Positions 3,887 to 38,242 of a stretch of 38,748 bases of DNA are shown in pieces. The notes under the pieces were generated by a model. It was not told the origin of the DNA and ran no database searches. It worked only from the letters and a program-made list of their open reading frames with translations. The position numbers and the translations under genes were made by a program. Source of the stretch: Promethearchaeota archaeon (lineage in GTDB: Archaea > Asgardarchaeota > Lokiarchaeia > Sigyniarchaeales > Promethearchaeaceae); assembly GCA_018238965.1 (NCBI GenBank), contig JABCSI010000005.1, positions 1 through 38,748 on the forward strand, read 5' to 3'. Within the stretch, counting starts at the first letter, position 1. The number at the start of each line of letters is the position of its first letter.

Positions 3887-3891
3887 CCTAG

Positions 3892-10269: not shown

Positions 10270-10581
10270 TCACTCTTCTAACCGTCTTTGAATCCCTTCA
10301 ATTTCATATGCTACGCTGGAATTATCTCCCCCAATAGAGATTTTCAATTGTCGTGCAGTTTCTAAAATCCGATAGATGGAAACTTTTGCATTTTGAGCAG
10401 CTTGACCAATTGAAACTTCCCCCTGTTGGATTAGGTCGATATTTTTTCTAATGATGTTTTCCTGATATCCATCCAAAATATATTTCCGAATTAAAACTCC
10501 ACGCTCAAGATTCATCTCATGGGCAATTTCTTCGATTTCTTTCAAAATTTTCTCATCAATACGCGTGCTAACTGTGATCAT
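10270..10581 (-). CDS. UPF0175/RHH-like antitoxin of a PIN toxin
   Basis: The 103-residue protein starts with a ribbon-helix-helix-like MITVSTRIDEKILKEIEEIA. It has a helical region, ERGVLIRKYILDGYQ, then QQGEVSIGQAAQNAKVSIYRILE, the helix-turn-helix of UPF0175 antitoxins (normally ...GKVSLGKAAELAGLS...). Its ATG overlaps the stop of the upstream toxin gene by four bases (10578-10581). The order is toxin first, antitoxin second. It should neutralise the PIN protein encoded just upstream and may repress the operon. Confidence 0.75.
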   Translation of the reverse strand: MITVSTRIDEKILKEIEEIAHEMNLERGVLIRKYILDGYQENIIRKNIDLIQQGEVSIGQAAQNAKVSIYRILETARQLKISIGGDNSSVAYEIEGIQRRLEE

Positions 10582-11505: not shown

Positions 11506-11844
11506 ATGTATTCGCCCCGAGATGCGAGAATTGTCAAATCTAATGCCTACCAAGAATCTAGACCACACCTCAAAATTCAAAACAAAACGATAAATTATCG
11601 AACCAAAAACATTAATGTCATCCATGATAGATCTTCCATAATGCCAAAGTTTCATCAAGACAGAAGCATCCACACAGCAACCTTCTTTGATTATTCTTAT
11701 GTCTTAGAAAAAGCGGAAGCACAGTATAAGTTGGGAGTTATAACCCGTGACCAATTTCTCCGCATCCGGACCCGTTGTGAACAAAAATTGGAGATATCTT
11801 CCAAAACTGAAAAAAAAGTTTCTGAAATTCCTACGATTGAATAA
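11506..11844 (+). CDS. Hypothetical protein with a SHOCT-like C-terminal helix pair
   Basis: The 112-residue protein has a basic, probably disordered N-terminal half. Then comes YVLEKAEAQYKLGVITRDQFLRIRTRCEQKLE, which resembles a SHOCT-type short helical pair (hydrophobic heptads around a G-x-I-T turn, the E-x-x-F helix). SHOCT segments usually sit at protein ends and mediate oligomerisation. It starts 92 bp upstream of the tRNA-Arg 5' end on the opposite strand and ends 14 bp inside the convergent TFB-like gene. Confidence is limited because the N-terminal part has low complexity. Confidence 0.5.
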   Translation: MYSPRDARIVKSNAYQESRPHLKIQNKTINYRTKNINVIHDRSSIMPKFHQDRSIHTATFFDYSYVLEKAEAQYKLGVITRDQFLRIRTRCEQKLEISSKTEKKVSEIPTIE

Positions 11845-13755: not shown

Positions 13756-14217
13756 ATGAAGATAGACGAATTAGCAATGTTTATAGACAATCATCAGAAG
13801 ATTGTCTTTGATTCAGGTGTTTTACTCGCATATATACAAGAGGAGAATGAAAATTTTACACATATTATGGATGAACTGGTATTCTCAGAAAAATCTGAAA
13901 AAGTGGTTATATACAATCAGTTAACGATAACAGAAATTTTTTATATTCACTGCCGAATAAATGGAGTTAAGAAGGCTACAATGCTAATTAATGACATGAG
14001 ATCAATGTTTGAGATACTTCAGATAGATTCACTTCATACTTTGGCTGGAGAATTAAAATGTCGATATCCAATTGCCCTCTCTGATTGCTTTTCAATTGCC
14101 TCAGGGATTGTAAAAAATATTCCAGTATTATTTATGAAAGAAAAAGAATTAACAAAAAAGATACAAGAAGAGATAGAACGAGATTATAATGCAAATTTAG
14201 CAGTATTGGCTTTGTGA
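13756..14217 (+). CDS. PIN-domain VapC-like toxin
   Basis: The protein shows KIVFDSGVLLAYIQEEN (first Asp, residue 19), TITEIFYIHCRINGVKKA (Glu of the second motif) and RYPIALSDCFSIASGIVKNIPVLF (the SDCFSIA motif that carries the central Asp in this PIN subtype). It ends with MKEKEL, where the last acidic position usually appears as TxDxE. At 153 residues it fits the VapC class. A purine-rich site (aggggc) precedes the ATG. The longer N-terminus, with MKIDELAMFIDNHQ before the first strand, is typical of the subgroup in which the toxin has its own ribosome-binding site. Confidence 0.75.
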   Translation: MKIDELAMFIDNHQKIVFDSGVLLAYIQEENENFTHIMDELVFSEKSEKVVIYNQLTITEIFYIHCRINGVKKATMLINDMRSMFEILQIDSLHTLAGELKCRYPIALSDCFSIASGIVKNIPVLFMKEKELTKKIQEEIERDYNANLAVLAL

Positions 14218-14250
14218 GTTATTTTTTGTAGTAATTTTTCCTTGGCTTGA

Positions 14251-14607
14251 TTACAGTAAGAAATCAGAAATCAAATTTTTAATATCTTTATAATCCAACA
14301 TCTCGAGATCTCCTCGTTTATTTTTAAATCGGTTGAAGGCCACGCTCCGAACTTGGAAAATCATGGCGATACTGGTTGCAGACAATCCATTTTGGGAAGA
14401 TGGAATAATTTCGTGAGTATAGGGAAAGCGTAAAGCGGATAGATTAGAAGTAAGGGGGATTATTGTCGCCATTTGTAATTGAGAAAGAACCTTTATTACT
14501 ACACAGGGGCGGGAACTCCCTTGCTCATGTCCGATAATCGATTGACTTCCCATTTGAAGATTCAACATCCACACTTCCTGTTCCTGAATCATTTTCATGT
14601 TTTTCAC
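14251..14607 (-). CDS. mazF: MazF/PemK-family mRNA interferase toxin
   Basis: The 118-residue protein has the MazF core: GSQSIIGHEQGSSRPCVVIKV (the G-S-E-Q-x-G-x-R-P-x-hhh motif with the catalytic Arg), MATIIPLTSN (hhhPhTSN), the NGLSATSIAMIFQVRSV segment (catalytic Ser/Thr on the S-x-xh-h-x-Q-h-R-t motif) and RGDLEMLDYKDI. MazF cleaves single-stranded RNA at short sites. Translation probably starts at GTG 14607 overlapping the upstream stop (gtga); ATGs at 14598 and 14592 are alternatives. There is no MazE upstream. Instead a YwgA-like protein and a wHTH regulator occupy the antitoxin position. Confidence 0.85.
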   Translation of the reverse strand: MKNMKMIQEQEVWMLNLQMGSQSIIGHEQGSSRPCVVIKVLSQLQMATIIPLTSNLSALRFPYTHEIIPSSQNGLSATSIAMIFQVRSVAFNRFKNKRGDLEMLDYKDIKNLISDFLL

Positions 14608-22412: not shown

Positions 22413-23951
22413 ATGAGTGGTCAAGGTATTCAAAACAAGAAATTATATGTTTGCAGGAACTGTAAAAGAGGGTTTCTATATTCAGAAACAGAAGCCCAAA
22501 ATAAATTATGTCGAAATTGTTTAACACAAACATTGGTATTACAGAAAAGACGGACAATTTTTGTTTGTTCTACGTGTAATCGGCATTACGACTCCAGTAA
22601 TATTATTAACTTAGATATACCAAAGGATAAACGCCCTGCTTTTAATTTAGGATCACTTATATGTAATAGAGATGAAACCCCCTTAATTATCCGAAGTTTA
22701 AAAGAAGATATCGGTCAATTGACCCGAAATTTCTATGGAAAGTTCGACCAAGACAAGGAATCCGAGATTTCCCAAGAACGTGAATTTTTAGAAAAACTCC
22801 AGCAATTGCGTTCTGAAGATGTTGACTATGAAAAAGATATCTTATCCTCCGTTGCCCCATTAGATGAAGCTGGCGCATTAAGTGGCGATTATTTCAACCG
22901 GAAATCCACTTGGTGGTATGGAGAGAAATTTGACACTCCCCATGCCAACGAATTTTGGCGCCATTATTTCATTGAGCGCAAAATTTACGACCCTGCAAAC
23001 TTTTTGGGAAATGGAAAAAGAGTTTTAAAAATTAAAGAGCTTTTGGATGAGGTAAACCTCTATCTTCTTAATCCCGATAAGCTTAACCCTGGCTATCCGG
23101 TTGTTGACCATCTTGATAATGGAAAAATTTATTATGTGGGTGATACCCACGGATCCATTTTTGATCTCGATCAGTGCATTAAATTCTTTGTAAATGAGAT
23201 TGAAAAGGCGCTGAGAAACGATTATCCCGTTCTGATTATATTTGCGGGGGATTATGTCGATCGCAACGAAATGGATATTCATAATTTGCTCTATCTCTTC
23301 AGTTTTGCCCTCCAATTTCCCCAACATGTTCGCTTACTGCGTGGTAATCATGAGGAAGTGACCATCAATATGCAATATGGGTTTTGGGATAATATCAATA
23401 AATATCTCCCGAATTCTTATCTCTTCAACGATTTCGAATATACGTTCATGAACCTCCCTCTGACGCATGTTGCACATACCCCCAAGGGTTCTGTTATGAC
23501 TTTGCACGGTGGTGTACCGTTCTATCCTGAAAATTACGAAACCCTCCCTAAGACTCCCCGTATTGTCGATGGGACGGTGGTGCTGAAGCCCAGCTATTCA
23601 ACCGTGGACGAAATGGATGTTTTATCACGGCAAATCCTGTGGGGTGATCCCGAAGACCGAATGCCGCCGAATATGTACTATCTTCCCAGCAGACGTGGGG
23701 TTGGTTATAGCTTTGGTCGGGAAGTTTTCGAAGAGTTTATGAAAGTGAACGAAATCCATCGTATTATTCGGTCACATGAGGTCTTTTTGGATGGCCATAA
23801 GGAATACTTCGATAACCGCCTGTTTAGTCTTTTCTCCTCTTCGAGCTACGGAAGTCGGGAGATCGAGGCAAAAATTTTGGAACTCGATCTGTCTAAGGAG
23901 TGGGATTCCAATTGGAGATACATTACTATCTTGGATGGGTTGGATGTTTGA
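22413..23951 (+). CDS. PPP-family Ser/Thr phosphatase with N-terminal tandem zinc ribbons
   Basis: Residues 1-90 hold two CxxC-CxxC ribbons (C14/C17, C33/C36, then C52/C55 with a further Cys84). A helical linker follows, then a full PPP catalytic domain: GDTHGS (243-248), GDYVDRN (279-285), RGNHE (310-314), HGG (365-367) and RSHE (453-456). These are the metal and catalytic positions of eukaryotic PP1/PP2A-type phosphatases. It should remove phosphate from Ser/Thr of partner proteins in the cytosol. The ribbon pair matches that of the kinase at 33266-35200 in spacing and local sequence. The catalytic domain is paralogous to the phosphatase at 32131-33264. Confidence 0.93.
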   Translation: MSGQGIQNKKLYVCRNCKRGFLYSETEAQNKLCRNCLTQTLVLQKRRTIFVCSTCNRHYDSSNIINLDIPKDKRPAFNLGSLICNRDETPLIIRSLKEDIGQLTRNFYGKFDQDKESEISQEREFLEKLQQLRSEDVDYEKDILSSVAPLDEAGALSGDYFNRKSTWWYGEKFDTPHANEFWRHYFIERKIYDPANFLGNGKRVLKIKELLDEVNLYLLNPDKLNPGYPVVDHLDNGKIYYVGDTHGSIFDLDQCIKFFVNEIEKALRNDYPVLIIFAGDYVDRNEMDIHNLLYLFSFALQFPQHVRLLRGNHEEVTINMQYGFWDNINKYLPNSYLFNDFEYTFMNLPLTHVAHTPKGSVMTLHGGVPFYPENYETLPKTPRIVDGTVVLKPSYSTVDEMDVLSRQILWGDPEDRMPPNMYYLPSRRGVGYSFGREVFEEFMKVNEIHRIIRSHEVFLDGHKEYFDNRLFSLFSSSSYGSREIEAKILELDLSKEWDSNWRYITILDGLDV

Positions 23952-24087
23952 ATTGCCGATAGGGTACCAAAGTTAGTGTAATCATAATTTAGATTTTTGA
24001 GTGAATATCGAAAATATTCTACTAAAACTAAAAAAATAATTAATTAAGAAAAAATATGCTTCAAAGGATTTCTTCTCTGAAATTCCG

Positions 24088-24897
24088 TTAAACCTTCTGC
24101 AATACATAGGAATAATACTGGATCGTGCCATCGGCGAATAGCTGAAATCGACGGGATCCCTTTGCTCCAGAAAATTCAGCACATGAGTTATGCAAGAATT
24201 TAGGGGTCTTTTCTTGAGCAAGCCGGATTCGACGATCTGAGTCTATCTCCAGAGCTGCCACTACATTGCGAAGAATGTTTTTTTCCGATTCAATCGTAAA
24301 TCCTGCCTCCAAAAATTGGGTTTTCAGAACAGCATTTCCCTCCTCAGTGCGCATATCAGAAAATAACAGATGTCCGCCGGGTTTTAAGGTTCGATACACT
24401 TCGTTGAGAAAGCCCGCCATATTTGCATAACACCTGGACGACTCAACATTAACAACTGCATCAAAGCGTTCATCCTCAAAGGGGAGATCCTCGGCTTTTC
24501 CTCTGATAAAAGATAATCCAGGTATGTTATATTTTTCATTGCAAAATTTTATCGCCTTGGACGATAAATCGAGCCCAATATAGGACTTGGTGTTTAAATA
24601 TCGTGAGATATACGATGCACCACCACCCCTTCCACACCCTACTTCTAGCACGTCCTTATTCTCAACTGGGATTTTTTGCACATCATGATGATATAAATTA
24701 ATGCAATAACGCTCGTTTTCGTCTTCTAATTTGAGGTTTAGCGGCCGAAATTCGCCATTCATCCCGCAAAACCCATAATTCATGAACTTAACATCTAATG
24801 CTTCATCATGTGAGACCAGATAATTATGCCAAATTCGCCACAGGGGACGTCGTAAAAACTTTGGTAACTCCGCATATCGCTCCATCAGATTTCTCAT
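24088..24897 (-). CDS. Class I SAM-dependent methyltransferase
   Basis: Motif I is DVLEVGCGRGGG (82-93). Acidic motif II YIGLDLS follows (the Asp binds the ribose), then GKAEDLPFEDERFDAVVNVES (motif III/IV) and LNEVYRTLKPGGHLLFSDM. This is the UbiE/PTM-like arrangement used for methylation of lipids, quinones and other small molecules. The N-terminal ~80 residues have a basic, aromatic helix (FLRRPLWRIWHNYLV) that may touch membrane, in line with a lipid substrate. It stands alone on the minus strand between a phosphatase and an alpha-mannosidase. The acceptor is unknown. Confidence 0.87.
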   Translation of the reverse strand: MRNLMERYAELPKFLRRPLWRIWHNYLVSHDEALDVKFMNYGFCGMNGEFRPLNLKLEDENERYCINLYHHDVQKIPVENKDVLEVGCGRGGGASYISRYLNTKSYIGLDLSSKAIKFCNEKYNIPGLSFIRGKAEDLPFEDERFDAVVNVESSRCYANMAGFLNEVYRTLKPGGHLLFSDMRTEEGNAVLKTQFLEAGFTIESEKNILRNVVAALEIDSDRRIRLAQEKTPKFLHNSCAEFSGAKGSRRFQLFADGTIQYYSYVLQKV

Positions 24898-25053
24898 AAT
24901 TCTCTTATTATATTAGATTGTTAGATTATTTAATAGAATTGATGCCTATCCTTGACATGGAGACAGAAACGTCTATTTCACTTCGCAGATTTCGATTTCG
25001 AGTGACTATTGTATATTCAATACTTTTACTTTGGACCTTGTAAATAATTAACT

Positions 25054-28000
25054 ATGGGTGACTCTGGTAAAAAAACCATTAAAAAAATCAATAGAAAAAC
25101 CTTCAAAAAAAGCGGGAATGTGGGTCATTACTCTGGATCGGAGCGACTAGATCCTGCCCAATTTGAGGAAAGGGATCTTGATCTTCCCCATGCTAAGAAA
25201 TTTTGGTTGGAGGAGCAACTCAATTCGCAAAAATTTAAAGACGAAATGGCGACATTACTATCAGAATTTGAACAAAAACTCGCTCCCGCAACCTTTAGCA
25301 ACCATCAAATTTACATGTGTGGCCAAAGTCATATTGACATGTGCTGGCTGTGGAGATACGAGCAAACCCGTAAAAAGGGGATTAAAACACTTCGTAAAGT
25401 TGTCACACATGCAAGATTATTCTCGGATTTCAAATATGCTGTATCGGAACCACAATTACTTCAATGGATTAAGGAAGACGATCCTGAATTGTTCGCTGAA
25501 ATCCAAGAGTTAAATCGTGGCGGACAAATCGAACTGGTTGGAGGGTCGTGGGTTGAACCGGATTGCATGATGCCCAGCGGTGAATCCATGGTACGTCAAC
25601 GGTTATTCGGTATGCGTTTTTTCCGGGATGAATTCGGTAAATTACCCGAAGTGGAATGGTTTTTGGATTCCTTCGGATATAATCGTGGCTTACCCCAAAT
25701 ATTGCGTAAATCGGGCGCCAATTACTTCTGGACCACCAAAATAACATGGAATAAGGACACAATATTTCCCCTGGTACATTTTTACTGGCAATCCCCAGAT
25801 GGGAGCCGTATCCTAACAAGCAATTTTGGCCAGAACCGGGAAATGTTTGATCAATGGTCCAAGTTTCATCCAGGAAGACATCTATCGCTTCCGTCCACTC
25901 CCCTCGTATGGAATTATTCCCAAGATTATTCCAATTTTGAGCAATATGCCGATTTCACCAAACCCATTATCCCGGTTGGATTTTTTAACGGTGCAGGGGA
26001 TGGCGGCCACGGTCCCACCCATCAAGAAGTCGCCCAAATGATTACTTTACGTGATCTGGCAGAGAAAAAAGGATATCGTTGGAATTGGGCCGGAGTTTCC
26101 GATTATTTTACTGCTCTTGAGGCTTACGGTCCGGATTTGCGAATTTGGGATGATGAATTGTATTTAGAAACTCATCGGGGAACCTTCACAGTCCACGCTG
26201 CAGTAAAGCGTCATAATCGGCGGTTGGAAGCCCGAATTCTCAGCATTGAGCGATTAGCTACCTTGACCTCACTCCAAAACCCTGCGTATAATTTTCCACG
26301 GCAAGAGATGGAAAGGATATGGAAACTAATTTTGCTCAATCAGTTTCACGATATGTTGCCCGGAAGTTCTATTCCCGAAGTTTACGATGATGCTTATGAT
26401 ATTTGGCATGAATGCGACACAGTGTTGGATTCCATAATCAATGATATTTCCACATTTGTATTGGCTGATTTACCTCCCAAGCGAGATTCATTAAACGCCC
26501 TAATGCTCTTCAATCCCTTGAATTGGAATCGCAAAACCCGAGTCTTCATTCCTCTATCCCTTATATCCCATCCCCCGGCGCAGAAAAATCCTATTGACTT
26601 GCTGCCCTATGCGCGATTGTATTTCAAGCGTAAGGGACAGGTAACCTCAACCATCTGCCAACCCGTAACGGCGGAAAATGTTGATGATATTCAGAATGAT
26701 ATGCAAAATTACGGCGAAGGGTGGTGGACTGTACTTGAACTGGAAGGCAATGAAATTCTTACTGCAGTTCTCAAAATTAAAAAAGTGCAATCTCCTCCAT
26801 TATTTGTTACAGAATCCCCTGCTCCGCGTATTACTAACCGAAGATTGTCTGTGGAGTTTGATCCCAAATCCGGTGCTCTGTTGAAAATCACAAATCAGCA
26901 TATCAATCACGGTAAAAATCTTCTATACGGTTCCCGCAATCTAATAGTGGAAGGATTTCAAGATAAGGGAAGCCTTGAGTATCCGGCATGGGATTTGCAA
27001 AAAGAATATTGGAAACACCCCCTGAAAGATAACCAAATGCAATCCCAAAATAGCAAAATCACCATAAGGGATCGTGGTCCGATCTTCTCTACTTTGCAAA
27101 TCACCAAAGAATTTGCAGCTACTACAATTTTTCAGACCTTTCAACTGTTCCAAGATGATCCGGTCCTCTATAGCTCGTGGGCAGCCGATTGGAAACAAAA
27201 AAACGTGTTATTGAAGATAGGGCTTCACACAAATACCAATGCCACCACGGACACCAGTGATCAGATGTATTGTGCTGAAGAATGCTCTACATTACCTGAC
27301 AATTCCGCAGATAGAGCCCGGTTTGAGAAAATTATGCACCAATATGTTGATGTTTCAACCCCCGATAACCAATGGGGAATTGCCTTCATCAACGAAGGAA
27401 AATACGCATACGATGCCAGTGGAGGACGATTGCGCATTACATTGCATCGAAGTCCTAAATACCCGCGGCCCACTTCAGAGGCATGGGTTAACTTAGAACG
27501 TCGTGAGCGGAGAAGAGAAAAGAAGGGCAAAACCCCAGGTAATTCTGGATTAGGTCCCCAGAGTGCCCGATTTGGTATTCTTCCACATCTTGGTGGGGCA
27601 CTGTCTACTGGAAAAGGGACGCCATCATCACTTGTATATAAAAAAGCCGAAGAATTTAATCATCCCATTCTTGTGAGTCAAGTTGTGAATCAAATCACCC
27701 CGAAAGAATCCACAAAACCTACTAAACCTACCAAGTTGGCGCCCGAACCAACCGCTAACGCATTCATACTTCCCCACAACATAAAGCTAAGTGTTTTTAA
27801 ACCCGAAGAATGGGAGGGTGAAAGTAGCCAGACCCCAGAAAAACGTGAATTTATCCTGCGTTTCGTTGAATTTTGTGGATATGCAACCGAAAAAGTGTCG
27901 ATCCAATTTCCATTGATCCTGGAAAATAGGGTTTCTAATATTTGTGAAGTAGATTTATTGGAACGGGAATTACCTAACCTGATACTGGATTGGCATAAAG

Positions 28001-28068
28001 CTACCCAAACGTTGAGTACATCCTTTGGACCCTTCGAAATCAAATCAATCAAGATTCAACTCAAATAG
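25054..28068 (+). CDS. GH38 alpha-mannosidase
   Basis: The 1004-residue protein has the class II alpha-mannosidase layout. The N-terminal catalytic domain opens with QSHIDMCWLWRYEQT (zinc ligands His93 and Asp95). It continues with QIELVGGSWVEPDCMMPSGE and VEWFLDSFGYN (nucleophile Asp205), then NQFHDMLPGSSI (zinc-ligand His region). The C-terminal beta domains run to the end. It hydrolyses alpha-linked mannose, probably from glycans or glycoproteins; there is no signal peptide, so it works in the cytosol. Unusual additions are a basic insert (RRERRREKKGK) after RSPKYPRP near residue 805 and a TKPTKPTK low-complexity run near 890, both in the C-terminal region. No operon partner is present. 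Confidence 0.93.
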   Translation: MGDSGKKTIKKINRKTFKKSGNVGHYSGSERLDPAQFEERDLDLPHAKKFWLEEQLNSQKFKDEMATLLSEFEQKLAPATFSNHQIYMCGQSHIDMCWLWRYEQTRKKGIKTLRKVVTHARLFSDFKYAVSEPQLLQWIKEDDPELFAEIQELNRGGQIELVGGSWVEPDCMMPSGESMVRQRLFGMRFFRDEFGKLPEVEWFLDSFGYNRGLPQILRKSGANYFWTTKITWNKDTIFPLVHFYWQSPDGSRILTSNFGQNREMFDQWSKFHPGRHLSLPSTPLVWNYSQDYSNFEQYADFTKPIIPVGFFNGAGDGGHGPTHQEVAQMITLRDLAEKKGYRWNWAGVSDYFTALEAYGPDLRIWDDELYLETHRGTFTVHAAVKRHNRRLEARILSIERLATLTSLQNPAYNFPRQEMERIWKLILLNQFHDMLPGSSIPEVYDDAYDIWHECDTVLDSIINDISTFVLADLPPKRDSLNALMLFNPLNWNRKTRVFIPLSLISHPPAQKNPIDLLPYARLYFKRKGQVTSTICQPVTAENVDDIQNDMQNYGEGWWTVLELEGNEILTAVLKIKKVQSPPLFVTESPAPRITNRRLSVEFDPKSGALLKITNQHINHGKNLLYGSRNLIVEGFQDKGSLEYPAWDLQKEYWKHPLKDNQMQSQNSKITIRDRGPIFSTLQITKEFAATTIFQTFQLFQDDPVLYSSWAADWKQKNVLLKIGLHTNTNATTDTSDQMYCAEECSTLPDNSADRARFEKIMHQYVDVSTPDNQWGIAFINEGKYAYDASGGRLRITLHRSPKYPRPTSEAWVNLERRERRREKKGKTPGNSGLGPQSARFGILPHLGGALSTGKGTPSSLVYKKAEEFNHPILVSQVVNQITPKESTKPTKPTKLAPEPTANAFILPHNIKLSVFKPEEWEGESSQTPEKREFILRFVEFCGYATEKVSIQFPLILENRVSNICEVDLLERELPNLILDWHKATQTLSTSFGPFEIKSIKIQLK

Positions 28069-28236
28069 ATTATTATTCTAACACACTTTTTTCACTTTTG
28101 GGCCACATCGATGATACTTCATTTTTTTTACCCATGGTATTTCCATTTGATTTTCATTACTCCTCTCGTCTATCCACAATGTTATTAAGATCAAAACGCA
28201 AATGATAATTGTTGGAGTAAAGGAGTTATTTCTTAT

Positions 28237-31200
28237 ATGAGCGAAAATTGTAATCAGTGCGGAGAAACCGTGAAATATTCGAAAAGTCGGTTCTGTAATT
28301 CATGTGGGGCTGAGATACGACCATTAGAGGTAGTGTTTACACCGTCCCTTGATGAAAATGCGATTGGCTTCAATAAATTCTTAGAACAGATAAAAATCAA
28401 ATACTATGAGCAGGTATATGATATAAATCTCTGGTTAGCCAAAAAATCGGTGAATTTATTCAATTCTCGCATGTATCTATCTAGGAATCTTTCTATTTTG
28501 CAACAAGTTCCGATTTTTGAACGAACGGAAAAGTTAGAAGACACTACTCTGGAAGCGAAAGAAATTTCCATTAAAATCCGTTCAGAATCCGAAACAATTC
28601 AACATACATATCAAACCGCCAAAGATGTATTTGATCAAGGCGAACTCGTAGAAGCTAAAGTAAAATTGGAACCTGCACATTCAACAGCCAAGAAGTTTGG
28701 CTTCTACCAATGGATTTCAGACATTATTCAACTTGAAACTCAAATCGCTGATAATTTAACTTGCCTCCAAAGTCTCGAAAAAATTCACCTTCCTGAGAAT
28801 CTACCCACTGAAAAAGTCGAATCTTCCCTCCTTTTTAGTTATTACAAACTCCTCCAACTGGAAAATTTTATCAATGCCCGAAATAGTGATCCTAAGACAA
28901 CTTTAAAAATTATTTCTCAAGTAGTAACAAAGATGGAAGGTCAAAAATCGATTCTTACAGACAAATTTAAAGAAATTAATCGAAACATCCCTGAATTTGG
29001 ATTTGGGGATAAAATTAAGTATTCAATTGAGTCTACCATTAAGAATTTCACATATTTCAAATCCCATTTCAAATTTAATAAGTTATTAGCCCAAGGAGAA
29101 GTATATTCAAATCTCCCCAAAGCTTGGGAAAGCCTACAAACAGCCCAAAAAATCATAGACGATGAGTCGGTTTTGATTTATACCGATAAAATTGCAGAGT
29201 TCAAGTTAATTTTAGAAAAAGCACGCAGTTTAGTTGCCCAATTGACTGAAGAGAAAAATGCTACAGTGGAAAAGACTTTGGAGTTGATGCAAAAATTTGA
29301 ATTCGAAGAGGCAATTAAGCTTATTGCAGCAACCATTGAAAACTTAACAGCATATTCCATGAATGTCTTAATCGGGCAGCTCGAAGAGCAAATTTCCTTT
29401 GTGCGTTATAATCAAGAAATTGATACGGAATTAGTGACAATAAATGATATTTACGATTTGGGAGATTATTTGGAAGCCCAAAGTCAGATTGATGCTCTTC
29501 AAAAACGTGCATCCCATGACGATGCTGAATTTGAAGTTGTGGAGAATCTTAATAGAAAAATTACAGAATTTCAAGAGAAGATCACCCTCAGTCGCACTAA
29601 AGGAGAAACTTTGCTAATTGATGAGTTAGACGAAATTTGGCGCGTTTTGATGGAAAATTTAACCTTCGCAGATAGTTCCCGCATCTTAATCGAGAAAAAG
29701 GATCTTGCCCATAAACAAGAGTATAAAGCAGCAGCAAAAAAAATCGATTCACTGATAAAAAATCTCGAACTCAATCAGCAATCCTATGGGTTCTTGCAGA
29801 ACATGGAAAAATTATTCCAAGAAGGAGAATTTGCTCAAACTAAAACCGTAATGGATGAATTAGAAAAACGTATCAAGAAATCTAAAAAAGATCATTTCCC
29901 TCTCCTTATCCAAAAGATCGAAGATTTTAAAGATTCCCTCTCTAAATCCATTTCAGATGAAGAAAATATTCTCAAGGGTGAAATTTCTAAAGCCCAGAAA
30001 CTGGTTGCCGATAGTCTTGAATTCTTCCAAGCCACAGAAATTTTAAGTAACTGTAAAGATCGAGCCGATATCGCAGGTTTGAATAATATTTCTAAACAAA
30101 TAGATATTATTAGCCAAAATTTTGTAGAAAATCAACGCTTACAAACAGAACAAGTGAGCTTTGAATCACGAATCCAAGAGGGTAAAATCCAAGAAGCTAA
30201 ACTTGGGTTGGAGGAATTATTGAAGACCGTATACAAGAACCCAAAAATATACTTACCCTTAATCAAGCAAAATTTGGAATCCATAATCGGAAAACTCAAT
30301 AAAATTATTGAAGAAGAAGAAGCCACTATTCACAAAAAGATTGAGGAATTCCACGATCTAATGGATAAATCATTGGATTTCAAAGAACCTATTGTCATAA
30401 TCGAGGAATTGGTACGAAGGATTAAATTAAATGGATTTTTCCAATATGATGATATTTTGGATCAATTGACCCAGAAAATTGCCCACAATAATCAAAAAGT
30501 TACTGAATTAGCCTCCGTGCAAAAAATCTTTGAAGAAGGCGATATTAATATTGCAGAAAAGGAAGCCAGTCAGTTATTGAAGCAAATTGAAAGTGAATTG
30601 AAGAAAACTCCCAGAATTTATGGGATCGCAATCAAAAACGCTGTAGAATTACTGAATTCCGAAATAGAAACCGCTTTAAAAGACGGGTTGGATAAACTTT
30701 CCACTGATTTTGCAGATATTACCGAGCTTGCCCAAACAGCCTTAGATTTCACTGAGATCTTACAAAAACTTAAAAATTACCAAATTCGAGCCCAAAGACT
30801 CGGCGAGGAAAACCTAAAAAATCAAATAATAGTTTTGGAATCCCAAGTCCAGTATAATTCGAATTTAGTTGCAAAACATAACACCTTAGCTGCAAAATAT
30901 CAACGGATGGAGGATTTCCTTCAAACTCTCCGGGAAATTAAAAATTTAGCCACCACCACCAAAACAGATCCAGCAGTTTTTGATCAGATAAAAAGTATCC
31001 TTGAGGCCCTTCAAGATCGCGTCGATGACGATAGTTCTGATCGGGAAGAAAGAATGCGAACTTCATTACAAAATATCATCAAAGAAGAATTGGACGTTCT
31101 GGATTTTGCAAAAGCAGGTGAATCATTACGGGGATTGCAGGAAACGGCCCAAGGGTTAGCTATTACAACGTTTAATACGGAAATTAATAAATTTCTAATG

Positions 31201-32007
31201 ATCTGCCAATCCCATAAAAATTTCAAGATTCGGGCGGAATCTGCACTTGTAAAACATAAAGTAGGTGGAATCATGGAAGCGCGGGAAGCTTTAGCGGATG
31301 TACAAAGTGATTTGGGACATCATGATGGGCCCGTGCTAGATGCAATGGTTACTTTTGTAAAGACGAATCATGATGCAATTGATGCTGAAATTACGAAGGA
31401 AATTGCAGATATTACAAAAGATGTTAAAGGGCGCTTATTGAATTTAATAGAATCTAAGAAAGGGGAAGAGGCTTACTTTATTTTAGAAGAAAAACTTGAA
31501 AGGGTCCGATATCTCGAATCCAAAGAATTACTCGCAGAAATTCCCGATTTAATGAAATTGTGCACCCTGCAATTTGATCCAATGGATAAGAAATATCGGA
31601 AAAAACGCAAAATACAAGATCTACAATTTTTGGAGAAAGAAATTGGACAGGTTTCAACCACCCTCATGCCTAAAGCAGCTACTAGAACCTCTACTGTGCA
31701 AACCATGATGGTACAAAGAGATTTTCAAATACAGGAAAAAACTCCTGAATTCGATACAAAGAAAGAGCTACGGGAGTATAAAATTAATCTGAGAATGAAA
31801 CAGCGTGCTCGAGTTGTAAAACCACCCAAAATCGCCGAAAACCTAAATAATAAAGTCAGAAATTCCACGACACGAGTTCAACTCCAAGCATTCGATTGCC
31901 AAACAAATCGCCCCCAAAAGCGCACCCAAACTACCTGTGCCAATTGCGGGGCCCACCAGAAGAATGCAATTGTTGTCTTCTGTGATTTTTGCGGTAAGCC
32001 ATTGTAA
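28237..32007 (+). CDS. Giant helical-repeat protein capped by zinc ribbons at both ends
   Basis: The 1256-residue protein has a zinc ribbon at the N-terminus (C5/C8, C20/C23) and another at the extreme C-terminus (C1234/C1237, C1249/C1252). Between them is almost pure alpha-helix, rich in Glu/Lys/Leu/Ile. A recurring pattern of a short EG(E/D/K) turn followed by ...A-K/E...L-L-K-x-I, a Pro or Tyr, and I-K-x-x-h-E-x-h is visible at about 131, 284, 405, 526, 645, 764, ~888 and ~1006, mostly 119-122 residues apart. This suggests spectrin-like bundles in an extended rod. A basic low-complexity tail (~1120-1215) precedes the last ribbon. No enzymatic motif is seen, so a scaffold or cytoskeletal role is likely. 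The region 28069-28236 upstream carries only its promoter. Confidence 0.85.
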   Translation: MSENCNQCGETVKYSKSRFCNSCGAEIRPLEVVFTPSLDENAIGFNKFLEQIKIKYYEQVYDINLWLAKKSVNLFNSRMYLSRNLSILQQVPIFERTEKLEDTTLEAKEISIKIRSESETIQHTYQTAKDVFDQGELVEAKVKLEPAHSTAKKFGFYQWISDIIQLETQIADNLTCLQSLEKIHLPENLPTEKVESSLLFSYYKLLQLENFINARNSDPKTTLKIISQVVTKMEGQKSILTDKFKEINRNIPEFGFGDKIKYSIESTIKNFTYFKSHFKFNKLLAQGEVYSNLPKAWESLQTAQKIIDDESVLIYTDKIAEFKLILEKARSLVAQLTEEKNATVEKTLELMQKFEFEEAIKLIAATIENLTAYSMNVLIGQLEEQISFVRYNQEIDTELVTINDIYDLGDYLEAQSQIDALQKRASHDDAEFEVVENLNRKITEFQEKITLSRTKGETLLIDELDEIWRVLMENLTFADSSRILIEKKDLAHKQEYKAAAKKIDSLIKNLELNQQSYGFLQNMEKLFQEGEFAQTKTVMDELEKRIKKSKKDHFPLLIQKIEDFKDSLSKSISDEENILKGEISKAQKLVADSLEFFQATEILSNCKDRADIAGLNNISKQIDIISQNFVENQRLQTEQVSFESRIQEGKIQEAKLGLEELLKTVYKNPKIYLPLIKQNLESIIGKLNKIIEEEEATIHKKIEEFHDLMDKSLDFKEPIVIIEELVRRIKLNGFFQYDDILDQLTQKIAHNNQKVTELASVQKIFEEGDINIAEKEASQLLKQIESELKKTPRIYGIAIKNAVELLNSEIETALKDGLDKLSTDFADITELAQTALDFTEILQKLKNYQIRAQRLGEENLKNQIIVLESQVQYNSNLVAKHNTLAAKYQRMEDFLQTLREIKNLATTTKTDPAVFDQIKSILEALQDRVDDDSSDREERMRTSLQNIIKEELDVLDFAKAGESLRGLQETAQGLAITTFNTEINKFLMICQSHKNFKIRAESALVKHKVGGIMEAREALADVQSDLGHHDGPVLDAMVTFVKTNHDAIDAEITKEIADITKDVKGRLLNLIESKKGEEAYFILEEKLERVRYLESKELLAEIPDLMKLCTLQFDPMDKKYRKKRKIQDLQFLEKEIGQVSTTLMPKAATRTSTVQTMMVQRDFQIQEKTPEFDTKKELREYKINLRMKQRARVVKPPKIAENLNNKVRNSTTRVQLQAFDCQTNRPQKRTQTTCANCGAHQKNAIVVFCDFCGKPL

Positions 32008-32130
32008 GAATGGAATATTGTTAATACTTGCCAAAAACTTTTTTTCCTAATTATTCTGTCGTGCTATTACAGACAAATACATGTATAAATATAGCTTTCA
32101 CAACTTGATTAGAATGTCGATTACCGGATT

Positions 32131-33264
32131 TCAATAGACTGTTTTTGCATTGTAGTAGGTTTTCAATTGTGTTTCCAAATATTTTTCATCTACCCAGAGA
32201 ATACCCTGTGAGTTTTCCTCTTCTGGACCAATTTGAGAAACGGGGGTGTCGGGTCTCAAGCGAAGAAATCGTGCATTCCCTATTTTTCGACCGTCGTAGG
32301 TGGATGTGCTAAAGAGGGTAATTACACGGTTATCCCAGAGAAGATTGTAGCCTTCGGAAAATTTTTGGTGCCCACGGATAAGTATATCAAACCTATTTAA
32401 TACCATGAAGTCCTCAAAGGCTTGGCGGCTAAATCGAGGGCGCCCCGTTCTAGGTGTAGGGGCTACAACTTCCTGTAACTGTGGATCTGGATCTGCCCAG
32501 AGCATTGTTTGCGAATAAGTATCCATATCAAAATGTTCTTTTTGGAAGCAGTTCATACTGGGTTCGAGTTCAACCAGTGAGACAGGGCTGTAATTTTTTA
32601 CATCGAAGGGAATCCCTCCGTGTATCACCACGATTTTCTTATCCCCGATTTGGCAAATAAAGCCCATGGGTAATTTACTGAAGAAATCTGTGGCTAAATT
32701 CCAAACCGGTTCAAATTCCTCCCGAGATCCTGCTTTTTCATATAAATGTTGCGAAAATCCATACCGGGAGCACACTGAACTGTCTTCATGATTTCCCCGG
32801 ATTATGAACACGTTATCCGGAAATAGGATCCAGAAGGATAAAATGAACGCTAAATTTTGCAAATCAAAAGGATTTCTGTCAACCATATCTCCGATCCAAA
32901 CAATTTTAGTCTTGGGATGGACCTGAAATACTTTTACAAAATAATCTATCATTAGAAAGGTATCATCGAAGGAGCCATGCGTATCACCCACAAAATAGTA
33001 GGTATTATCCGGAGTATGGATATCCCGTATGATTTTTTGATATTTTTTCTCTGAATACTTATGTTCCAATAATTTCAATCCCATTTGGAATAGGGCTTCA
33101 TAGTTTTCCAGAATATCCCTTGCTTCAGCTTTAAATCTAGAGGATCCTCCCGCGAAATATCGAAAAAACCACTGCCATACATATTCGGGAGCTGTTTGGT
33201 TTCCAATTTCATATAATCTATCGCGTAAAGCATTTTCTGTTGTGTTCGGATTAGCCTGCGTCAT
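32131..33264 (-). CDS. PPP-family Ser/Thr phosphatase
   Basis: The protein has the PPP metal-site motifs GDTHGS (93-98), GDMVDRN (125-131), RGNHE (156-160), HGGIPF and a final RGHQ (the RAH/RSHE position). It ends with FSTSTYDGRKIGNARFL, a block also found in the phosphatase at 22413 (FSSSSYGSREIEAKIL), so the two are paralogues. Unlike that copy it has no zinc ribbons; residues 1-85 are helical. Its gene starts one base after the stop of the kinase gene upstream (33266), so kinase and phosphatase are made from one transcript. This suggests they act on the same targets in opposite directions. Confidence 0.92.
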   Translation of the reverse strand: MTQANPNTTENALRDRLYEIGNQTAPEYVWQWFFRYFAGGSSRFKAEARDILENYEALFQMGLKLLEHKYSEKKYQKIIRDIHTPDNTYYFVGDTHGSFDDTFLMIDYFVKVFQVHPKTKIVWIGDMVDRNPFDLQNLAFILSFWILFPDNVFIIRGNHEDSSVCSRYGFSQHLYEKAGSREEFEPVWNLATDFFSKLPMGFICQIGDKKIVVIHGGIPFDVKNYSPVSLVELEPSMNCFQKEHFDMDTYSQTMLWADPDPQLQEVVAPTPRTGRPRFSRQAFEDFMVLNRFDILIRGHQKFSEGYNLLWDNRVITLFSTSTYDGRKIGNARFLRLRPDTPVSQIGPEEENSQGILWVDEKYLETQLKTYYNAKTVY

Positions 33265-33265
33265 A

Positions 33266-35200
33266 TTACTCTACTTCCTGGGAATATATTTTGAACGGAA
33301 TTCTGTAAGATTTGTTGTCGGGAGCTAAGAAGGGAACTTCGATGATCATATTTCCTAAATTTGCTTCCGAAAGTTCAATTGAAACATTATCTAGCCCTTT
33401 AATTGCCACATTATTATAGACTTGTTGATTTGGCATCGTCAATTGGCTCAGGAAAGTTCCCATGGGCGAAGAAATGTCCCGTATGTATGCCACATCATTA
33501 TCAATATATAGCTGAAATGAAAATCGACCCTCGTCGGTGGGGATTAGTGCATTAAATAAATGACCATCCATATCGTGGGTTCTTCCCACTTTCAAAATTT
33601 CATCCCGCCCAATATTGATGATTGTTTGAGGTGGAAGGGCCAGAAATCCTTGATTATAATCGCAATAAAGGTAATAATTCTTATCTTTTTCAACCAAATT
33701 GGGGTGCTCCAACTTCCCAGAAGTGTCATATAACCACTGAAGAGCATCATATACTTTAACCATATCTGCCATTCGATCCGCTGGTTCATATTGGGTCATG
33801 TACTCTACGAGTTTGTTGAATTCTTGGGGTAAATTCGGATTATAGTCACCTGGATGGAGTACAAAATCTTCATTGGTGGCCGCCGCACTGGCATAATTTC
33901 CTCCACTGAAGAGGTAAAACATGATGTGCCCCAGCATATAAATATCTGTGGTTGCAATAGGTTCAAACCCTGCCATTACTTCGGGAGGTGTGCCTCTATT
34001 CCGAATTCCTGTAGCTTCGGGGGTGGCTGATACGTAATACGGTTTGCGGGGATTGTACATGCTGTCTAAACTAATTTCTTTAGCGACTCCCCAATCAATT
34101 ATAATCGGATACAACCCAATCTCCGGATCCGTTACAATCATGATGTTTTGAACCGTGAGATCACGATGGATTATTCCTTTCTGATGGCAATAATACATGT
34201 GGCGAGTAATCGGCATTAAAACTTCCTTTATCATGGTCCGGAGTGTTCCGATTGTTAAGTGGCTAAGATCGGTAAATTTTTGGCCATACCATGTATCTAG
34301 GGGGACGCCATCGATAAATTCGAGAAAAATGTAGTATTCTGGATTATGAAATTCGGTTAAATGCAATTTCCCAACATATTTCATGGATTTTTCTGGGGAT
34401 TCGTTTTGGAGATCGCTGATTTGAGCCTCTCGGGTCCAGTATTTTTCACAGAAATTATTCCCTGATTCGGGATCGTGAAATCGGGAGTAATAAAATTCCT
34501 TAAGGGCAGTAATTTGCCCCGTTTCAATGTTACGTAATTTATGTACGGATCCCATACCTCCTGTACCAATTTTCTCAATCACTTCGAATTGAGATGAATC
34601 GATCCGCAATTTATCTCCGGGTTGAATGCTCGCATGGGATTTCATCGTTGAAGAAGCGGCAGCTTGGGGAACCGGAAAAGGAGTGAAACTAGGGGCAGAT
34701 TTTTGGGGATCTGTGGAAGTAGAAGTTGAAGAATCCAGATCTTCGTCTTCGATAACAGGAAATGGGAGAAAAGCACTTTTTTTGATTTTTGGTTTTGGTT
34801 GTGCGGCTAAGGTTTCAGCGAAGGCTGCAGCTTCTTGGGATGATTTGGCTGCCAATTTTCTCTTTCGGGGTGGTTCTGGGGGCAGCTGGGTGTTAAATCC
34901 TAAAAGTGATTTTCTTTTTACTTTATTCTGACGAGATTGCCGGGCACCTATGAGAATACTTTTCACTTGACCAGAACAGTTAGATGCTTGACATGTTAAA
35001 TGGCTATCTCCATGTAACTGGACGAAAGAATTTTTGTTTTGGGTTAATCCACAGGTTTTACAGCGAAGAATAAAACGTCCCGTTAATTTTTCTATAGGTG
35101 AATGTTGGCACGCCTCACATTTTTGGGCTTTGTCAGATGGAAGTACATATATACTATTACACGAAGGACACTGGAAGAAATCTTTTGAGGAATTTGACAT
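33266..35200 (-). CDS. Ser/Thr protein kinase with tandem zinc ribbons and an FHA-like domain
   Basis: Order: zinc ribbons (C11/C14, C28/C31; then C47/C50, C70/C75); a disordered Pro/Ser/Ala linker (~85-195); a kinase domain; and a C-terminal beta domain. The kinase has a Gly loop IGTGGMGSV (211-219), Lys234 in ALKEF, Glu258, HRDLTVQN (345-352), Asp369 in DWG (DFG variant) and PPEV at the APE position. All catalytic residues are present, so it should be active. Residues ~525-620 (IINIGRDEILKVGR..., RDISSPMGTFLSQ) resemble an FHA phosphothreonine-binding domain. The ribbons match those of the phosphatase at 22413. The phosphatase gene follows after 1 bp. Confidence 0.9.
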   Translation of the reverse strand: MSNSSKDFFQCPSCNSIYVLPSDKAQKCEACQHSPIEKLTGRFILRCKTCGLTQNKNSFVQLHGDSHLTCQASNCSGQVKSILIGARQSRQNKVKRKSLLGFNTQLPPEPPRKRKLAAKSSQEAAAFAETLAAQPKPKIKKSAFLPFPVIEDEDLDSSTSTSTDPQKSAPSFTPFPVPQAAASSTMKSHASIQPGDKLRIDSSQFEVIEKIGTGGMGSVHKLRNIETGQITALKEFYYSRFHDPESGNNFCEKYWTREAQISDLQNESPEKSMKYVGKLHLTEFHNPEYYIFLEFIDGVPLDTWYGQKFTDLSHLTIGTLRTMIKEVLMPITRHMYYCHQKGIIHRDLTVQNIMIVTDPEIGLYPIIIDWGVAKEISLDSMYNPRKPYYVSATPEATGIRNRGTPPEVMAGFEPIATTDIYMLGHIMFYLFSGGNYASAAATNEDFVLHPGDYNPNLPQEFNKLVEYMTQYEPADRMADMVKVYDALQWLYDTSGKLEHPNLVEKDKNYYLYCDYNQGFLALPPQTIINIGRDEILKVGRTHDMDGHLFNALIPTDEGRFSFQLYIDNDVAYIRDISSPMGTFLSQLTMPNQQVYNNVAIKGLDNVSIELSEANLGNMIIEVPFLAPDNKSYRIPFKIYSQEVE

Positions 35201-35605: not shown

Positions 35606-36697
35606 TTGGATTTAATCTTTCTAGGAACAAGTGGGGCGACTCCCACTCAACACCGCAATTTACCAGCGATTGCATTGAGATTGGATTCGGGTCATCTTAT
35701 AGTTTTTGATACCGGAGAAGATATTCAACGGCAGTTTGAAGCAGCTAATTTGAGATTTAACGTTCCTACAACCATTTTTATCTCACATTTACATGGTGAT
35801 CATGTCATTGGATTACCAGGTTTACTATTTAATTTTCATTTGAATTCTCGTTCGAAAGCTTTAACCATAGTAGGGCCTTTGGGACTTGCATCATTTTTGA
35901 TGTCGCTTCATCAAATTGTCGGTCTGAAGGCATCAAATTATGCCCTAACTGTGAAGGAAATCGTTCCTCCCCAATTAAAAACAGATGTTAAAGAGGTTAA
36001 AGAAGTTAAAGAGGGAACAGAGGATACAAAGAATACAGAAGATACAGAAAATGCTGAAGTTCAGGTTATTACTTATACAAATTTTCTTAAACCCACCTAC
36101 GAACGAAGGGTAACAATTCAATCTCACCGTAAGCTTATTGAAAAATGGGAATTTGGTGTCAAATTTTCCTGGATGGATCATTCCGTTCCAACGATGGCAT
36201 TTAGATTTGAAGAAGCCCCCCTGGATGGAAAATTTTCGCCAGAACGAGCAATAGAATTGAGGGTTCCCAAAGGACCCTTATGGAAACGAATGCAAAAGGG
36301 GCAATCTATCACTTTAAAAAATGGAACTCTGATTGATCCGGTGGAGACCGGAATTGTAACTCGACCTCGTCGGGGAAGGATTATTGTTTACAGTGCGGAT
36401 ACCGCTAAATGTGAGGCAATCGTCTCGCTTGCCCATGATGCGGATTATTTTATCTGTGAAGCCACCTATGGAAGTGAGCACGAAGATTTAGCCGTGGAAA
36501 AAAAACATTTAACTGCGAGGTTTGCAGGTGAAATTGCACGGGATGCTCAAGTTGTCCAATTAATCCTCACCCACTTTTCAAGTAGATATAAGGATGTCTC
36601 GTCATTATTAGAAGAAGCACAAGTAGTTTTTCCACGTACCCAAGTTGCCGAAGATTTGCTGCAAATTGCGATTTATCCTCGCGAAGAATTGTCTTAA
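35606..36697 (+). CDS. rnz: Ribonuclease Z (tRNA 3' endonuclease)
   Basis: The beta-lactamase-fold nuclease opens with MDLIFLGTSGATPTQHRNLPAIAL, the RNase Z N-terminal signature. It has SHLHGDHVIGLPGLL (HxHxDH, residues 61-66), MDHSVPTMAFRF (His192), IVYSADTAKCEA (metal-bridging Asp) and LTHFSSRY (final His motif). The enzyme removes 3' trailers from pre-tRNA; the tRNA genes here lack an encoded CCA, so this step is needed. Translation starts at TTG 35606, the only start that keeps the first strand. A 24-residue VKE/DTE repeat insert (~128-151) lies in the region between the HxHxDH motif and His192, where RNase Z has surface arms. The length, 363 residues, is slightly long for that reason. 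Confidence 0.92.
   Translation: MDLIFLGTSGATPTQHRNLPAIALRLDSGHLIVFDTGEDIQRQFEAANLRFNVPTTIFISHLHGDHVIGLPGLLFNFHLNSRSKALTIVGPLGLASFLMSLHQIVGLKASNYALTVKEIVPPQLKTDVKEVKEVKEGTEDTKNTEDTENAEVQVITYTNFLKPTYERRVTIQSHRKLIEKWEFGVKFSWMDHSVPTMAFRFEEAPLDGKFSPERAIELRVPKGPLWKRMQKGQSITLKNGTLIDPVETGIVTRPRRGRIIVYSADTAKCEAIVSLAHDADYFICEATYGSEHEDLAVEKKHLTARFAGEIARDAQVVQLILTHFSSRYKDVSSLLEEAQVVFPRTQVAEDLLQIAIYPREELS
35987..36058 (+). repeat. Eight 9-bp repeats inside the RNase Z gene
   Basis: Three units of gttaaaga(g/a) are followed by five looser units of the gatacagaa type. The frame is kept, giving VKE-VKE-VKE-GTE-DTK-NTE-DTE-NAE. The stretch is charged, probably disordered and outside the catalytic core. Confidence 0.85.
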
Positions 36698-36762: not shown

Positions 36763-38242
36763 CAGTCTTCGAGGTTATAGACGGTCCGACTTAAATCGCC
36801 TCTAATCGGTCAATAACATTTTCCGATCAAGTTATAAGCGGGAAAGTAGAAATATTAAGTGATCACCATGATATCTCTACAGTCACGGGCGATTCTCCAA
36901 TCGACCGACTGCTCTTTCCCTACTGATCTTTTGCTTTTGAAAGAATTTAAAGCTTTGGTGGATGAGCAGGTCAAGCTATTGGGAGTCGCCGATCGCTTCC
37001 GCCCTCGGCTCTATGCACATTCGGATTTTGTTATGGTGAAGTTATATGCCATCATACGCCAAATCTCAGTTCATGTTGCCGCAGAAGGGTTAAATGCCTA
37101 CGTAACCAAATATTATGCAAAAAATCATAATTTGACCCCCAAAACCTTTGCAGATAATAAGCGTAAACGACGATTTATACCCCATCAAACCGAAGTAGAT
37201 AAATATTTCAGGCGTTTTTCGGAAAAAGAGGTGCAAGATCTCTTTGGAAATACACTTATGGCTCTTTGTCGTAAAATTGCCAAATTTTTTGGATTGTCAC
37301 AAAAATGGCGCTACTTGGTTGATAATACGGAATATCCATATTATGGAAAGACAATCACACCTTACGAGCAAAAAACATATAAGCGCCATATGGGCACGAA
37401 AACTGTACGCTTGTTTCAAGGTCACTCGGTCCACTGCCAGAATATCACTCTTTTTACCGATTTTTACTTATTGCAGAAGGGCAAATGTCGATTGCTTCCC
37501 ATTCCCAATTCTACAGAATGGTTGATGTGGAATGATTTTAACGTTAGCTATGGTTTAATGGATCGAGAATTTTATCGCGTTCAGCTAATCAAAGCCTTGA
37601 AAGATAAGAAAATTCCAATCATAATACCTTCAAAGAAATATCCTAAAGTAAAGCGGGTCATCAAAGACTATTTGTTGAAAAAGGGACCTTTGGTTTCCCA
37701 ATATCTATTTCAACAGAAAACAGGAGCCAAACCTTGGCGAACTTCAGTCTTAATCAATATTGTTGTAGTAGGGCATGATGATCAATCTGCTTGGAAAATC
37801 CGTGATCAATTCTGGACCGGAAAAATTGGCTATGATAAAGCACTTCACCAACTATCAGCCTTCTTTACAACCCTGAAACCATGGAAAAATGAGCGATCAT
37901 GGGCTCGTTGGTTGACAAGAACATACAAAATTCGTTGGAATCAAGAAACAGGTTTTAGTTCTCTAAATAAAATCCACTATCAATTCCGATACCGTAATCC
38001 TATTGTCCAATTGGCTGAATTATATCTACGCGCTCTAATTCACAACGGATGGCAATTTTATCGCAATCAAGGATTAAAACAAGGAATTCACCATCAAGAA
38101 CTGACTCTTTTTTGGTATCGCATGAGTAAAATCAATGAATTGGAGGCAGTGGTATTAAATTCAAGCATCCAAAATGTCAATCCTTTACAAGAAGAAAAAA
38201 GGAGGTTATATTTTGAGACATAATTTATAACCTTTAAGACTG
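36763..38242 (+). mobile_element. Complete insertion sequence, 1480 bp, with IS4-like transposase
   Basis: Imperfect terminal inverted repeats of 17 bp (15 matches) mark the ends: cagtcttcgaggttata at 36763-36779 and, on the minus strand, cagtcttaaaggttata at 38226-38242. The element is flanked by a perfect 8-bp direct repeat gattgaaa (36755-36762 and 38243-38250), the target duplication. A 9-bp reading is possible, since the adjoining g is shared. It holds a single DDE transposase gene. Perfect target repeats and an intact ORF indicate a recent insertion, in the gap between RNase Z and the Gly-Gly beta-grasp gene, with no gene broken. Confidence 0.92.
36859..38223 (+). CDS. DDE transposase, IS4-like
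   Basis: The RNase H-like catalytic triad can be read as Asp155 in YLVDNTEYPYYG, Asp235 in YGLMDREFYRVQ and Glu363 in YKIRWNQETGF. The last follows the Y-x-hR-W-x-x-E-x-x-F motif of IS4-type DDE transposases. A long beta-strand-rich insertion separates the second Asp from the Glu, as usual in this superfamily. The first ~110 residues are basic and helical (DNA binding). The frame starts at GTG 36859, with ATG at 36868 as an alternative. The gene fills almost all the element, and its stop lies 3 bp before the right inverted repeat. The exact IS family cannot be fixed without a database search. Confidence 0.9.
   Translation: MITMISLQSRAILQSTDCSFPTDLLLLKEFKALVDEQVKLLGVADRFRPRLYAHSDFVMVKLYAIIRQISVHVAAEGLNAYVTKYYAKNHNLTPKTFADNKRKRRFIPHQTEVDKYFRRFSEKEVQDLFGNTLMALCRKIAKFFGLSQKWRYLVDNTEYPYYGKTITPYEQKTYKRHMGTKTVRLFQGHSVHCQNITLFTDFYLLQKGKCRLLPIPNSTEWLMWNDFNVSYGLMDREFYRVQLIKALKDKKIPIIIPSKKYPKVKRVIKDYLLKKGPLVSQYLFQQKTGAKPWRTSVLINIVVVGHDDQSAWKIRDQFWTGKIGYDKALHQLSAFFTTLKPWKNERSWARWLTRTYKIRWNQETGFSSLNKIHYQFRYRNPIVQLAELYLRALIHNGWQFYRNQGLKQGIHHQELTLFWYRMSKINELEAVVLNSSIQNVNPLQEEKRRLYFET

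Follow-up and report, generated by a model that had tools for sequence, protein, structure and literature searches.

Do a protein kinase and a protein phosphatase encoded in one archaeal neighbourhood carry the same N-terminal zinc-ribbon module, and what kind of phospho-signalling system would they then form? The question is raised by a 38,748-nucleotide stretch, here called the window, from contig JABCSI010000005.1 of assembly GCA_018238965.1. Its source genome (G000) is that of a Lokiarchaeon congeneric with Candidatus Harpocratesius repetitus. The window contains a PPP-family phosphatase with a tandem ribbon (PPP_a), a kinase with a tandem ribbon and an FHA-like domain, a second PPP-family phosphatase (PPP_b) and a giant protein of 1,256 amino acids with ribbon caps. 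A sequence-only reading, whose reading frames all exist as given, had suggested that these genes could form a scaffolded reversible-phosphorylation system not previously described in archaea. The comparison with the complete genome of H. repetitus FW102 (G001) and with genomes of the sister genus g4 (G004, G006 and G007), which belongs to the same family (f1), shows the set to be real, conserved and lineage-restricted, and probably a new variant of the Arn- and TerY-P-like phospho-switches more than a new kind of system.

By its sequence the kinase is of the Hanks type, with the glycine loop GTGGMG at residue 212, K234, HRDLTVQN at 345 and DWG at 369, and orthologues with 52-70% identity were found in four related genomes. 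A fold search with its model returned, among the matches listed, only kinases; the PADLOC matches to PD-T4-6 and MAD6 were rejected as generic kinase-domain similarity. The three Cys pairs reported earlier (11/14, 28/31 and 47/50) are present, and a fourth, C70/C75, had been overlooked, so that the N-terminus holds two complete ribbons. These are found in all five genomes, and the eight Cys together with GRFILRC..CGLTQNK are invariant across the five orthologues. The C-terminus gave no Pfam FHA match; aligned by hhalign to the ZR-FHA protein of a second locus (see below), it reached 60% probability over 113 columns. Its model is rich in beta structure, with block values of the predicted local distance difference test (pLDDT) mostly of 63-85, falling to 45-48 at residues 541-560.

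PPP_a and PPP_b both belong, by sequence, to the PPP family of Ser/Thr phosphatases. The PPP_a motifs are complete (GDTHG, GDYVDR, RGNHE, HGG and RSHE), and in a PDB sequence search its nearest solved sequences were the catalytic domains of PP5, PP2A and PP1, PP5 being the best (3.9e-26). The Cys pairs 14/17, 33/36 and 52/55 are where they had been placed; beyond the third pair only a lone C84 and a conserved D87 follow, so the first ribbon is full and the second incomplete. The PPP_a ribbon is 66% identical in H. repetitus, and the full-length identity to this genome is 71%. PPP_b, which starts 1 bp past the kinase stop codon as had been noted, carries the full motif set and adjoins the kinase in 5/5 genomes. 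The two phosphatases represent two old paralogue groups, that of PPP_b being different and older. Phosphatases of both types occur in the window and in the second locus, with a support of 96/100 for the b-type clade.

The second locus, on contig C126 of the source genome, encodes on one strand, in this order, a vWA protein, ZR-FHA, the further ribbon proteins ZR3, ZR2 and ZR1, a kinase, a PP2C and two PPPs. H. repetitus has the same operon, and G004 and G006 show it in pieces. ZR2, a tandem ribbon protein with no recognised enzyme domain, is encoded two genes from the operon kinase. The best solved match of the operon vWA protein was ArnB (8S05_A, 1.1e-13) and that of ZR-FHA was ArnA (5A8I, 9.9e-4); with ArnA-like and ArnB-like proteins, a kinase and a PPP encoded together, the locus is at sequence level an Arn-like module. 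The C-terminus of its kinase has no Cys ribbon, and the locus is not a TerY-P triad despite its vWA, PP2C and kinase genes. The window kinase and the operon's kinase and vWA protein are found together in the two genera g1 and g4, but neither G003 nor G005 has this combination. A smaller, compact operon with vWA, ZR-FHA, kinase, PP2C and a second kinase-like protein was observed in the distant Asgard genus g39 (L179, L180 and L181; G109, G108 and G110); where the locus is not cut at that side, as in two of the three, another vWA gene is present. Elsewhere, an 894-aa kinase-like protein (L182:915-3599, G002:C687), with YRN and RWLW replacing HRD and DFG, is likely to be a pseudokinase.

The claim that the kinase and PPP_a ribbons are one module was partly borne out. 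The offset between the second and third knuckles is 16 in both proteins, and that between the first and second is 16 in PPP_a and 14 in the kinase. Of the two words said to be shared, F/Y-L-x-S-x-x-A-Q is out of register (FLYSETEAQ vs YVLPSDKAQ) and lost in the orthologues; R-x-I-x-x-C-x-T-C stands in both window proteins, and its R-x-I-x-x-C-x-x-C form is kept in all orthologues of the kinase and of the ribbon-bearing PPP_a. The profile-profile alignment of the two N-termini, proposed earlier as a check, placed three knuckles in register with a score of 32.3, above the 16.4 +/- 4.3 of 300 shuffles in which the Cys columns were fixed. The similarity is real.

Profile searches covered whole genomes in six frames. 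In the complete H. repetitus genome, the two best non-self matches of a kinase-only profile were PPP_a (5e-4) and ZR2 (0.0097). A PPP-only profile matched ZR2 of G004 (1.4e-4) and the kinases of G004 (0.006) and G007 (0.05), as well as a small stand-alone ribbon protein of G000 (0.0045) and a few TFB-like ribbons. The joint kinase and PPP_a profile (A3) recovered ZR2 in all three searched genomes that encode it (G000, G001 and G004), the E values being, in order of size, 8.5e-5, 6.9e-4 and 8.9e-4. The one other match in this range was a TFB-like ribbon of G002 that matched partially (41 positions, 9.1e-5); the remaining generic ribbons followed from 0.006. Mutual recovery of kinase, PPP_a and ZR2 above the other ribbons of the genome was thus seen in G001 and mostly in G004, and failed in G000 for the kinase-PPP pair. 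Across 228 Asgard genomes, a search that scored the best candidates per genome and may miss a few divergent copies, the full module appeared, among the matches listed, only in family f1, on the kinase, PPP_a and ZR2. Other matches were partial; the ones that were inspected proved to be ribbons of a TFB-like, TnpB-like, B-box-like or other unrelated kind.

A generic ribbon fold used genome-wide, the outcome by which the sequence-only reading would have fallen, was rejected for the full module, which both searches show to be rare and, among the matches listed, confined to three protein families. Of the kinases, phosphatases and repeat proteins on which it was to be looked for, the kinase and PPP_a carry it; it is also found in ZR2, and the ribbons of the giant protein are of a different kind. 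No Pfam, NCBIfam or PADLOC family matched the ribbons above cut-off, and the kinase ribbon profile found nothing significant among PDB sequences. In AlphaFold models from 5-row alignments (mean pLDDT 47 for the kinase and 40 for PPP_a), short strands surround knuckles 1 and 3 with a confidence too low for fold comparison. From the sequences, a common origin of the kinase and PPP_a ribbons, with ZR2 as bridge, appears likely; its support is moderate and short of proof.

The small stand-alone protein mentioned above (86 aa, G000:C27:321-578, minus strand; L199) is a tandem ribbon protein resembling the PPP_a ribbon. Its gene lies directly downstream of an actin-like gene on the same strand (L199:748-1902), and a broken remnant of it was found in G007:C59, away from actin.

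The presence of the same adaptor on opposing enzymes is true of Harpocratesius and not of its sister genus. The PPP_a orthologues of G004 and G007 occupy the same syntenic place without a ribbon and begin with a charged stretch; a search upstream of both genes found no ribbon remnant. The second-locus PPP related to PPP_a also has no ribbon, and the simplest account is that the PPP_a ribbon was gained in the Harpocratesius lineage. The module on both opposing enzymes is therefore limited to that genus.

The general principle of such a system is already known in archaea, contrary to what had been supposed, from the archaellum regulatory (Arn) network of Sulfolobus (ArnA, ArnB, ArnC/ArnD and PP2A), which comprises a zinc-ribbon FHA protein, a vWA protein, a kinase and a PPP phosphatase (PMC7472852, PMC6509490, PMC12852372). 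There, ArnC phosphorylates ArnB, the FHA domain of ArnA interacts strongly with phosphorylated ArnB, and PP2A binds and dephosphorylates ArnB, dissociating the complex (PMC7472852); ArnA docks on ArnB by way of its zinc ribbon (PMC12852372). The second locus resembles this network in its zinc-ribbon and FHA protein, vWA protein, Hanks-type kinase and PPP phosphatase. It differs in that kinase and phosphatase genes sit together in one operon or locus, with a PP2C and two PPPs; in the window, unlike in the Arn network, kinase and PPP_a themselves carry the ribbon as a fusion, and no vWA is recognised. A connection with archaellum genes was not seen here.

TerY-P triads join vWA, PP2C and a kinase whose C-terminus carries a zinc ribbon; this ribbon has been proposed to bind nucleic acid or to sense metal (PMC11090510). 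Genes for vWA, PP2C and kinase are present in the second locus, and the window kinase combines kinase and ribbon, but this ribbon is N-terminal and double, and FHA domains and PPPs are added. The window is neither a TerY-P triad nor an Arn-like module, since it contains no recognised vWA or PP2C and no zinc-ribbon FHA protein of the kind found in the second locus; defence or tellurite genes were not noticed in the vicinity. Asgard ancestors are the presumed source of the PPP phosphatases of eukaryotes (PMC8249667). The PPP motifs of both window phosphatases, and the closeness of PPP_a to PP5, PP2A and PP1, agree with the eukaryote-like Asgard PPPs of that survey, whereas PPP_a has an N-terminal tandem zinc ribbon and the main text of the survey never mentions zinc.

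How, then, might the window set work? By a small margin of belief we favour the view that it derives, as an offshoot, from an Arn-like (TerY-P-like) switch built of vWA, zinc-ribbon-FHA, kinase and phosphatase. In the complete Arn-like version at the other locus, the tandem ribbon belongs to a protein of its own, ZR2; in the offshoot it would have been fused to the kinase, where two genera keep it, and in Harpocratesius alone also to PPP_a. The kinase would phosphorylate Ser/Thr residues of a common scaffold or substrate; candidates are the giant protein with its ribbon caps and a vWA protein. FHA domains would read the phospho-Thr and hold the complex together, and PPP_a and PPP_b would take the phosphate off. 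By analogy with ArnA, whose zinc ribbon docks ArnB, the most likely role of the ribbons is docking, through which kinase and phosphatase would meet on a common partner. A bolder and rather doubtful extension is that a dedicated docking module, at first a subunit by itself in an Arn-like operon (ZR2), moved onto the kinase and then onto the opposing phosphatase, placing writer and eraser on one scaffold (the giant or a vWA protein); this would be like eukaryotic anchoring scaffolds in principle and would have evolved independently in Lokiarchaea.

Several observations weigh against the offshoot reading, and some of them are what one would expect if the kinase and phosphatase ribbons were unrelated, generic and independently acquired, with a likeness due to the common CxxC pattern and an incidental neighbourhood. 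Pairwise BLAST of the two N-termini gave no in-register alignment; in the source genome the kinase-only profile reported ZR2 alone (0.049) and not the window's own PPP_a; ribbons preselected from the 228 genomes scored as high by hhalign as the kinase-PPP_a pair, in a control that is biased because many of those ribbons were fetched by the same kind of profile. These results make the case for a common origin borderline. The absence of the ribbon from PPP_a in g4, which could likewise point to independent acquisition, means that the phosphatase can belong to the set without it. We nevertheless consider unrelated ribbons improbable, since just one of the 300 Cys-fixed shuffles reached the observed score, PPP_a and ZR2 were the best non-self matches in the complete H. 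repetitus genome, and all modules lie at the very N-terminus with order and register agreeing over three knuckles. Also on the unfavourable side, in the kinase tree the window kinase groups with a third, ribbon-less kinase of the C57 type (7-row set, 100/99) and not with the operon kinase, so that a plain duplication of the whole operon cassette is not shown; and no vWA or PP2C was found among ten Pfam-screened proteins of the window, nor by eye in its other open reading frames.

A rival of another kind, and the main one, accepts the module and denies the common partner: the ribbons could be nucleic-acid- or metal-sensing regulatory domains gating each enzyme separately. It can draw on the proposals made for the TerY-P kinase ribbon (PMC11090510), on the best, insignificant solved matches of the kinase ribbon (TnpB-like nuclease and ribosomal S27e ribbons, E 0.07-0.5) and on the tRNase Z-like gene that adjoins the kinase; docking, too, could as well be to nucleic acid. 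This rival seems unlikely to us, though it deserves to be taken seriously, because in ArnA, the direct precedent from archaea, the ribbon serves to dock a protein (PMC12852372) and ZR2 bears the module without a recognised enzyme domain, beside the ZR-FHA and vWA genes.

The neighbourhood itself, whose persistence was to be checked, is conserved: the genes for kinase, PPP_b, giant protein and PPP_a stay close, and the synteny reaches the second genus. The order DsbD, PPP_a, GH38, giant, PPP_b, kinase, tRNase Z is common to G000, G001 and G004, and is kept piecewise in G006 and G007. The giant protein is 48% identical in H. repetitus, and its syntenic relatives in g4 are 23-29% identical (E down to 2.7e-48). 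It had been described as a ribbon-capped repeat protein; a CxxC..CxxC ribbon does stand at each end, but both are of a short single type unlike the tandem module, the g4 relatives have only the C-terminal one, and self-BLAST found no internal repeat.

Table 1. Coordinates of the features discussed, in window positions.
Feature	Position	Strand	Details
PPP_a, PPP-family Ser/Thr phosphatase, 512 aa, N-terminal tandem ribbon	22413..23951	+	Pfam Metallophos 8.8e-20
PPP_a tandem zinc-ribbon module, residues 1-99	22413..22709	+	C14/C17, C33/C36, C52/C55, C84
PPP_a catalytic domain	23124..23780	+	
GH38 alpha-mannosidase	25054..28068	+	Pfam; conserved neighbourhood member, no evident signalling role
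Giant protein, 1,256 aa, probably helical, short ribbon at each end	28237..32007	+	
Giant protein, N-terminal single ribbon	28249..28305	+	C5, C8, C20, C23
Giant protein, C-terminal single ribbon	31936..31992	+	C1234, C1237, C1249, C1252
PPP_b, second PPP-family phosphatase, 377 aa, without ribbon	32131..33264	-	Pfam 4e-21
Kinase, 644 aa: tandem ribbon, low-confidence linker, Hanks-type kinase, FHA-like C-terminus	33266..35200	-	Pfam Pkinase 5.4e-22
FHA-like C-terminal domain of the kinase, about residues 505-644	33269..33688	-	hhalign and beta-rich model segment
Protein kinase domain	33767..34588	-	Catalytic residues all present
Kinase tandem zinc-ribbon module, residues 1-88	34937..35200	-	C11/C14, C28/C31, C47/C50, C70/C75
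tRNase Z-like metallo-beta-lactamase	35606..36697	+	Pfam; adjoins kinase, conserved neighbour

Other phosphatase genes were observed outside the window. A third a-type PPP of the source genome (L188:6400-7377, G000:C224), cut by the contig end, has GDTYG instead of GDTHG and has probably lost a metal ligand. A PPP with a long acidic N-terminus lies beside two more conserved genes in G000:C123 and in G001 (L029 and L097); in G000:C123 both of these encode proteins ending in a single zinc ribbon, making this a third phosphatase locus with ribbon partners.

Within the window, a DDE transposase with a weak Pfam match (0.004) lies beside the locus at 36859-38223, and in H. repetitus a different transposase-like gene stands between the giant protein and PPP_b. 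Inspection by eye of the first half of the window revealed several PIN-domain-like and MazF-like genes of the toxin-antitoxin type (3464-3997, 6762-7151, 10270-11105 and 13756-14607); also by eye, the gene at 11831-12937 was read as one for a divergent TFB-like protein that starts with a zinc ribbon, and that at 649-2982 as one for a bacterial-type PAS-histidine kinase-receiver hybrid protein.

The targeting of Asgard PPP phosphatases is little known, and this lineage gives a defined set in which to study it: a kinase, two PPPs, ribbon proteins, a vWA protein and FHA domains. The sister genus, with its ribbon-less PPP_a, provides a natural experiment on whether the ribbon targets the enzyme. 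Taken with the second locus, the findings suggest that Arn-like phospho-switches extend from Sulfolobus into the Asgard archaea, where they take the form of operons that encode a kinase and phosphatases of their own.

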